A stretch of 64,000 nt of DNA from Hymenobacter cellulosilyticus (GTDB taxonomy: Bacteria > Bacteroidota > Bacteroidia > Cytophagales > Hymenobacteraceae): assembly GCF_022919215.1 (NCBI RefSeq), contig NZ_CP095046.1:2966501-3030500 (forward strand), read 5' to 3'. A program made the translations under genes and the position numbers. Positions 49,403 to 50,365 of the stretch are shown here, piece after piece (the first letter of the stretch is position 1; every line of letters starts with the position of its first letter). The notes beneath the pieces were generated by a model. That model saw nothing but the letters and a program-made list of their open reading frames with translations. It was not told the origin of the DNA and did not search any database.

Positions 49403-50104
49403 ATGGCAAAGTATGAATCCCGGTTCGACAATTTCTTTCTTAACCTGCGCCTGAACCGCGCCCAGTTTGGTGATATGGCCGGCTTTACGCTTCAGGCCCT
49501 GCGCCAGAGTACCGAAGCGGCCCGCTATGAAGAGCTGATCAAGGACCTCGACGCAGCCCTGACGGCCTACTCCGCAGCCCACACCGGCCAGCTCTCCGGC
49601 GAGGCCCAGGGCGCCACCGTCACGGTGGCCCAGGCCCTGCTCGACTTTCGGGCCTATGTCAAGCGCGTGGAGCGCCGGCACGTGACGCCCACCTACGATG
49701 AGTTTTCGGCCGATATAGCCGCCATCTTCCCCAAGGGCCGGGCCGCGCTGACCAACAGCATTCAGGCCCGGGTGCTCGATGCCTTCGGGGCCTTCCTCAT
49801 TGCGCTGGCCTCCCGGCCCGCCGCCTTCCCGGCCGCCGTGCGCGCTGAGGGGCAGGAGGTGTACCGCAACCTGAAAACGGCCCTGGAACTGGCCGACGCG
49901 GCCCACGCCACGTCCTCCACCCACCGCACCGACCTGCACGACGGCCGCGAGGCCACCTGCCGGCAGCTGTTCCGGGCCTACGCCACGCTGCTGCTCACCC
50001 ACTACGAGTACCCCACGCGCGTGGCCGGGTACTTTGATCTGAGCCGGGCCCTGATATCGAAATCGGGCAAGAAGGCTCCGGCAGCCCTGCAGCCTCAGGC
50101 CTAA
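49403..50104 (+). CDS. hypothetical helical cytoplasmic protein
   Basis: 233 residues from ATG 49403 (MAKYESRFDNFFLNLRLN); the frame is open upstream to 49280 but those residues look like translated promoter DNA. No recognised domain. Predicted mostly alpha-helical with regular Leu/Ala spacing, no signal or membrane segment, basic tail KSGKKAPAALQPQA. The gene ends 25 bp before the palindrome array, whose first copy forms its terminator-like hairpin. Function unknown. Confidence 0.75.
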   Translation: MAKYESRFDNFFLNLRLNRAQFGDMAGFTLQALRQSTEAARYEELIKDLDAALTAYSAAHTGQLSGEAQGATVTVAQALLDFRAYVKRVERRHVTPTYDEFSADIAAIFPKGRAALTNSIQARVLDAFGAFLIALASRPAAFPAAVRAEGQEVYRNLKTALELADAAHATSSTHRTDLHDGREATCRQLFRAYATLLLTHYEYPTRVAGYFDLSRALISKSGKKAPAALQPQA

Positions 50105-50128: not shown

Positions 50129-50165
50129 AAAAAGCCCTTGGTACGCCCGTACCAGGGGCTTTTTA
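50129..50165 (+). terminator. terminator-like hairpin formed by array copy 1
   Basis: Arms aaagcccttggtacg and cgtaccaggggcttt pair over about 15 bp with one mismatch/slip and are followed by tttt. It is 25 bp after the 49403-50104 stop and is built around the first 14-bp palindrome of the array. Confidence 0.6.
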
Positions 50166-50365
50166 GTGCCAAATCAGGCATGGTACGCGCGTACCACGCC
50201 CACTTGTGTCGTTTGGGAGGGCTCAGTACGGGCGTACCAAGGCCTTCCCAAAGCCGAAAAGCCTTCGGTACGGGCGTACTGAGGGGTATTTGGGGGCGGG
50301 ATGGCCTTGGTACGCCCGTACCGAAGGCTTTTATTATTACCACCCGGCCCTGGCACGCGCGTACT
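50140..50365. repeat. phased array of six 14-bp palindromes (consensus GGTACGSSCGTACC)
   Basis: Copies start at 50140, 50182, 50225, 50267, 50309 and 50352, a period of 42, 43, 42, 42, 43 bp. Copies: ggtacgcccgtacc, ggtacgcgcgtacc, agtacgggcgtacc, ggtacgggcgtact, ggtacgcccgtacc, ggcacgcgcgtact. The 28-29-bp spacers differ from each other, but several begin or end with ccttgg/aaggctttt-like arms that extend individual palindromes. It fills the 405-bp gap before the small membrane protein gene; the rest of the gap holds nothing recognisable. Confidence 0.85.

Follow-up and report, generated by a model that had tools for sequence, protein, structure and literature searches.

Palindrome arrays at four-turn spacing beside a Hymenobacter gene family, with the palindrome sequence tracking the C-terminal tail of the protein

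In Hymenobacter, a family of genes is associated with arrays of short palindromes at a fixed spacing; the palindrome differs between the members, and a short C-terminal tail of the protein tracks it even when the remainder of the protein is corrected for. The analysis started from a 64,000-nucleotide stretch of Hymenobacter cellulosilyticus (NZ_CP095046.1, positions 2,966,501 to 3,030,500), which is called the window and to which all unprefixed coordinates of gene, tail and units refer. The founder of this two-part system is the gene of a 233-aa protein at 49403-50104 on the + strand, which belongs to an unnamed, mostly helical family, and its array occupies 50140-50365. We consider it probable that gene and array constitute one unit, that is, a DNA-binding protein with its private cooperative platform. 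Judging from the sequence comparisons, it is equally probable that the protein binds its own array and that its specificity is set by the tail.

The original prediction described six phased 14-bp palindromes in one intergenic gap, and its coordinates proved to be exact. The palindromes start at 50140, 50182, 50225, 50267, 50309 and 50352, with steps of 42, 43, 42, 42 and 43 bp, and no strand is assigned to them. Palindrome 1 (50140-50153) and palindrome 5 (50309-50322) both read GGTACGCCCGTACC, while palindromes 2 (50182-50195), 3 (50225-50238) and 4 (50267-50280) read GGTACGCGCGTACC, AGTACGGGCGTACC and GGTACGGGCGTACT, respectively; palindrome 6 (50352-50365), which reads GGCACGCGCGTACT, is the weakest of the six. 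When fitted to GGTACGSSCGTACC, three copies are exact, two have one mismatch and one has two. The complementary 16-nt arms at 50257-50272 and 50317-50332 that had been pointed out earlier are also present, as read by eye. The array starts 35 bp 3' of the stop codon of the gene. With the period left free between 24 and 70 bp, the best period in the 420 bp 3' of the gene is 42, with a score of 8.6, compared to a maximum of 4.0 for the same search over 37 shuffled 3' regions. A census of periods covered 864 kb of sequence from the genome of the window (the window and 40 stretches of 20 kb). At period 42, two chains score at least 6, the window array and one in L338; period 43 returns the window array again, periods 38 and 58 give one chain each, and the remaining periods from 30 to 60 give none. 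Chance is ruled out by the shuffled regions together with this census. A coding 14-aa repeat was considered as another candidate, with reading frames that are open in places, but it was rejected because a step of 41 or 43 bp shifts the reading frame.

An alternative ORF of the gene has an earlier TTG start, from 49280. The AlphaFold2 model of the protein (pLDDT 81.5, pTM 0.49) is helical, with a tail that is predicted to be disordered from residue 222; the tail codons that concern us (LISKSGKKAPAA, residues 217-228) lie at 50051-50086 on the + strand. The window protein has no Pfam match, and among 26 family members tested the best E value was 0.005, in one member. Searches of the protein against NCBIfam, PHROG and PADLOC gave nothing of note (the best PHROG match, of unknown function, has an E value of 0.05). 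Sequence search gave no relative of known structure for the window protein, and the folds listed by the fold searches resemble it at the level of a common helical bundle only, with no recognised DNA-binding fold among them. There is no transposase match in the window protein, and no plasmid homologue was found at E 1e-3. The neighbouring genes are EamA-like, SPW-repeat (below the cut-off) and topoisomerase-like, all assigned by eye except SPW. Relatives occur in 38 of the 120 genomes of the genus, with 94 matches listed and a maximum of nine per genome. The genome of the window has five family genes, two of which (L243 and L258) show no array by the criteria given below.

We examined 88 distinct loci of the 94 listed matches, which is one fewer than the 89 rows obtained before L262, the same locus as L191, was removed. 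A 3' array was counted if it had three or more copies, a period of 41-43 and a score exceeding the best of the shuffled regions. Such an array was found at 56 of the 88 loci, and four more (L247, L255, L257, L259) have a 5' array. The array is absent by these criteria from the other 28, two of which lack downstream sequence at contig ends (L217, L260); L209, with a 5' score of 5.3 and a non-palindromic consensus, was left out of the counts. After near-identical proteins were dropped, 54 of the 56 arrays remained for the layout counts and the covariation analysis. Their steps comprise 174 of 42, 34 of 43 and 19 of 41 bp, where the chain permits only ±1 around the best period and the arrays were pre-selected at 41-43, the period having been free in the original search. 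The number of counted units is mostly five (28 arrays) or six (14 arrays), and the median start is 25.5 bp 3' of the stop codon. The palindromes vary among the members, for example GGTACGCGCGTACC, TTGCAACCGGTTGCAA, TTCCGGAGCTCCGGAA, CTGCACCGGTGCAG, TTGCCACCGGTGGCAA, GCCGCATGCGGC and GGGACTTGTCCC, and more were seen. In G068, two palindromes (AGTACGCGCGTACT and GGGACGTACGTCCC) are mixed in a single 42-bp phase (L156:9872-10356 and L158:9699-10090).

The association also holds on the level of whole genomes. When four array types were sought in the 120 genomes, 15 were positive and all of them were among the 38 genomes with a family gene, compared to 0 of the 82 without it (Fisher 3e-9, with genomes treated as independent). 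A two-copy pattern search found arrays in 9 of the 120 genomes and its reversed control in none; these arrays have 41-43 bp steps and usually fill the intergenic gap. The original prediction had taken single copies at random spacing as the sign of an ordinary REP or terminator cluster. This check came out in favour of the prediction: further copies, both here and in relatives, are also 41-43 bp apart and not randomly spaced, and the window array is more than a simple REP or terminator cluster. Lone GGTACGSSCGTACC matches in other Hymenobacter genomes (L005-L013) are without an array and chance-like, mostly within reading frames as judged by eye.

We then compared palindrome similarity with protein similarity in sliding windows of 12 columns, corrected for the remaining protein, over the 54 arrays. 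The C-terminal tail is the single peak, with a partial r of 0.337 (0 of 2000 permutations), while the best protein window outside it gives 0.152. When the permutation was restricted to body clusters, r was 0.552 within clusters (0/2000) and 0.238 between them (7/2000), and two of six control windows had a weak signal inside clusters (0.183, 44/2000; 0.238, 88/2000); as the rows are kin, these permutation counts are not strict probabilities. Tails of the ALISKSGKK type go with TACG, AGRxSxGPK with TTGCAA, and ADTGGGKK or AEMGGGKK with CCGGAGCTCCGG. A tree built from the bodies alone of 17 members requires seven or more changes of palindrome class, and sister pairs with good support (L166/L167 and L178/L182) differ in both palindrome and tail.

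Such a pattern could also arise by hitchhiking, in which the recombination that brings a new array brings the neighbouring tail codons too, and no recognition takes place. The tail codons are close to the array (about 60-90 bp in the window), so one recombination tract could carry both, and tail and array do switch together between the close relatives L171 and L172. However, the DNA between them is nearly free of signal: the correlation with the palindrome is 0.050 for the last 10 residues, 0.057 for the last 30 nt of the gene and 0.042 for the leader DNA, and the spacer consensus inside the array has none (r -0.053). Moreover, a tail and a palindrome are held in common by proteins whose bodies are 30-44% identical and whose spacers are unlike (L229/L238 with L190/L212; L239 with L189/L224). 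Since there is little signal between tail and array, and distant bodies share both, recognition fits better, and we regard hitchhiking as very unlikely. The earlier suggestion of phased protein binding therefore survives as a reading of the sequences, now tied to a neighbouring gene family whose tail co-varies with the palindrome; neither the gene nor the distant arrays described below had been noticed, and the same holds for the differences in palindrome from member to member. As a separate observation, long inverted repeats resembling small mobile repeats lie near the arrays 3' of the L168 and L172 genes (GAGACGCA...TGCGTCTC and TGTCATCCTGAGC...GCTCAGGATGACA).

Transcribed hairpin clusters, with terminators or stem-loops of RNA under selection for folding at the 3' end of genes, were weighed against DNA dyads. 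Unit 1 of the window is lengthened to a long symmetric stem at 50129-50164, without an assigned strand, which folds at -25.7 kcal/mol (z -6.2) and, with its runs of A and T, resembles an intrinsic terminator acting in both directions; a simple terminator scan flagged it on the - strand only. The folds of units 3 and 4 are likewise more stable than those of shuffled sequences (z -3.1 and -4.1), first units are generally richer in outer stem pairs (4.04 of 7 vs 2.88 in later units), and most arrays stand directly 3' of a stop codon. On the other hand, unit 6 of the window did not fold in this test, and there is no hairpin arm covariation beyond unit 1 in 51 arrays. With the first unit dropped, core arm pairing in these arrays is 0.887 across units and 0.886 within, and outer arm pairing is 0.407 and 0.404, respectively. 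Arms centred on the spacers find no support either (0.379-0.383 vs 0.398-0.419 for other spacers). Dyad symmetry reaches 0.87 at the second-innermost pair, where a hairpin loop would sit, and 0.55 at the innermost, in arrays whose selection gave equal weight to all seven pairs. In addition, terminators need neither the 42-bp spacing nor the link between tail and palindrome, and the array is 5' in four members and at the DUF6261 genes discussed below. We thus find the hairpin explanation quite unlikely. As the arms fit the arms of other units as well as their own, the halves match a shared half-site and not each other, which favours symmetric half-sites of a putative dimeric DNA-binding protein over compensated stems.

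Arrays of the same palindrome also occur at a distance from the gene-linked ones. In the genome of the window, GGTACG, the type of the window palindrome, has one gene-linked array and a distant one at 5765120; CAGAACTCTG has a gene-linked array at 3069155 and distant ones at 1045354 and 3597870; and GCACCGGTGC has a gene-linked array at 2134615 and distant ones at 662791 and 3653939. A profile search at 12 loci with distant arrays detected no remnant of a family gene next to them, and the genes neighbouring them differ. One distant GCACCGGTGC array (L384, G000:C1:662700-662930) has TTGCCACCGGTGGCAA as its first unit instead. Distant and gene-linked arrays of one type are found together in 6 of 16 genome-type combinations, while 9 of the 136 family-positive combinations have an array but no gene-linked one with that palindrome (post hoc p 0.0015; G060, whose array is mostly GGGACGTACGTCCC, was assigned to TACG). 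These nine unaccompanied combinations are evidence against a strict dependence of arrays on a gene-linked array; for example, G068, G061, G011, G088 and G025 have TACG arrays without a gene-linked one.

The gene-array association, the spacing, the differing palindromes, the covariation with the tail and the distant arrays are computational results; from these patterns we infer binding, dimerisation, cooperativity and bridging alike. The protein, probably as a dimer, would read each 14-bp palindrome, and the short basic C-terminal tail would choose the palindrome sequence that is read. The sites are four helical turns apart and share one face of the DNA, so neighbouring dimers could touch each other and fill the array cooperatively. 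One or two distant arrays of the same palindrome might also be bound, and the loci would then be bridged or marked in a private address system similar to partition or looping. Bridging of the array loci is a guess that we would back only with reserve, and local regulation follows close behind. In the latter, the array would be an operator through which the protein controls nearby genes by repression or activation; this is compatible with binding and differs in the outcome only. Arrays in intergenic gaps, including those 5' of DUF6261 genes and of four Hymenobacter members, are in keeping with an operator, but the array is mostly 3' of its gene and far from the gene's own promoter, and the genes near the distant arrays differ. 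We judge local regulation possible but doubtful.

A selfish tandem repeat that colonises the ends of genes, with a protein that aids its amplification or movement, would also account for one array type at several places, for the patchy distribution of the gene and for arrays of variable length (L158, for example, has 10 copies and L056 has 14). Growth by unit duplication, as proposed earlier, is plausible in view of the alike spacers in some arrays (e.g. L163/L164), but it leaves the link between tail and palindrome unexplained. Against a selfish repeat, arrays are kept at orthologous places in several species: the array after the window gene is at the same place in G081, G082 and G086, another lies in the gap between bcp (peroxiredoxin) and transketolase in G011, G088 and G025, and a third lies between permease and TonB-type receptor genes in G000 and G068 (gene names of the last two by eye). 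There is only a handful of arrays per genome and the protein lacks a transposase match. We consider a selfish repeat unlikely, and a protein that binds its own array remains our preferred reading.

When compared to known systems, the two-part system would work like a partition or operator-array system, but the defining features of the classes tested are either lacking or not evident in it; no description of such a system was found in open-licence full-text papers. In ParB-parS and related partition systems of plasmids and chromosomes, the gene of the partition protein stands beside a cluster of palindromic sites, and more sites are located elsewhere in the chromosome; ParB has an HTH DNA-binding domain, and its gene is accompanied by that of the ParA ATPase. 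The likeness lies in the gene beside a palindrome cluster, the private specificity and the further chromosomal sites. In contrast, no ParA or ParB family match, HTH fold match or plasmid homologue was among the matches listed, no ParA ATPase gene is among the neighbours seen at the window locus, the 42-bp phasing here is strict, and specificity tracks a short tail. In type III toxin-antitoxin systems (ToxIN), RNA antitoxin repeats lie upstream of a ToxN-like toxin, and the pairing of a protein gene with some 5-6 tandem units of 30-50 bp resembles the present layout. However, the array here is 3' in 56 of the 60 array-bearing loci, there is no match to ToxN or another Pfam family, and the units are DNA dyads without arm covariation within the unit. 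CRISPR arrays consist of identical repeats with unrelated spacers and are accompanied by cas genes; the repeat core here is 14 bp long and varies, and the spacers are partly alike in some arrays. A cluster of intrinsic terminators, with a stem and a T run in each unit, is matched by only some of the window units.

REP elements are likewise short palindromes outside genes that lie close to gene ends and can be arranged in tandem; they carry a GTAG or CGTC tag at one end (PMC3733652). The differences from REP/RAYT are a window protein without a tyrosine-transposase match, a low copy number, a fixed period and a palindrome that changes from gene to gene. No linked Y1 transposase was found, the adjacent protein having no Pfam or notable PHROG match, and in place of a high copy number the whole 6.09-Mb genome of the window has four exact copies of the palindrome pattern, and two period-42 arrays were counted in 864 kb.

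In other Bacteroidota, 42-bp arrays with the same core occur in named genomes among the matches listed, one of them 5' of a DUF6261 gene in Parabacteroides faecalis. We collected 78 DUF6261 loci, two of which were found via their arrays. Upstream, 33 of the 78 score above 4 and 19 of these 33 choose 41-43 bp; downstream, 12 of the 78 score above 4 and none chooses 41-43, on a scale where AT-rich shuffles reach 5.0. Examples of 5' arrays of 42-43 bp in Parabacteroides are L122:3762-3989 and L048:2918-3100, and in another genus about half of the scoring DUF6261 loci have upstream arrays of 41-43 bp. As in the window family, the proteins are uncharacterised, and palindrome arrays of 41-43 bp period can stand next to their genes. 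The differences are the 5' position of the array, the lack of detectable profile homology and the lack of a covariation peak in the tail, for which 23 of the 78 loci, strongly clade-bound, were usable. The DUF6261 model (PF19775) has no match in the window protein and none in G000, and no homology between the two families was detected (hhalign probability 0.6%).

We tentatively suggest, as something that may well prove otherwise, that orthogonal DNA address systems form a large class in Bacteroidota, in which uncharacterised helical proteins, with short C-terminal tails as exchangeable determinants of specificity, would bridge or mark a few distant chromosomal loci through private four-turn dyad arrays, and that DUF6261 would be a second branch, independently recruited or very distant. 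If binding is confirmed, the genus offers a natural library of dozens of orthogonal protein-palindrome pairs, with the choice of DNA sequence apparently made by about twelve residues and a recognition code that could be read from a short tail; the system would also be a candidate for a new level at which Bacteroidota organise their chromosomes. There would also be a lead to the function of two uncharacterised families, the window family and DUF6261.

Some further arrays were noted in other genomes. A Chitinophagaceae contig (L056:4690-5250) has 14 TTCTACGTGCGTAGAA palindromes at 42-43 bp between leuC-like and deacetylase-like genes, and no family gene was seen there. In a Tannerellaceae MAG, 42-bp TACGCGCGTA arrays are on three contigs (L058, L117, L142), none of them beside a recognised family gene. 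A 42-bp repeat in Limisphaerales (L112:3114-3450) looks like a coding repeat of seven residues. A different layout, TACGNNCGTA at 22-bp steps, is present in rumen Prevotellaceae and Treponema (L047, L066, L092, L120, L134).
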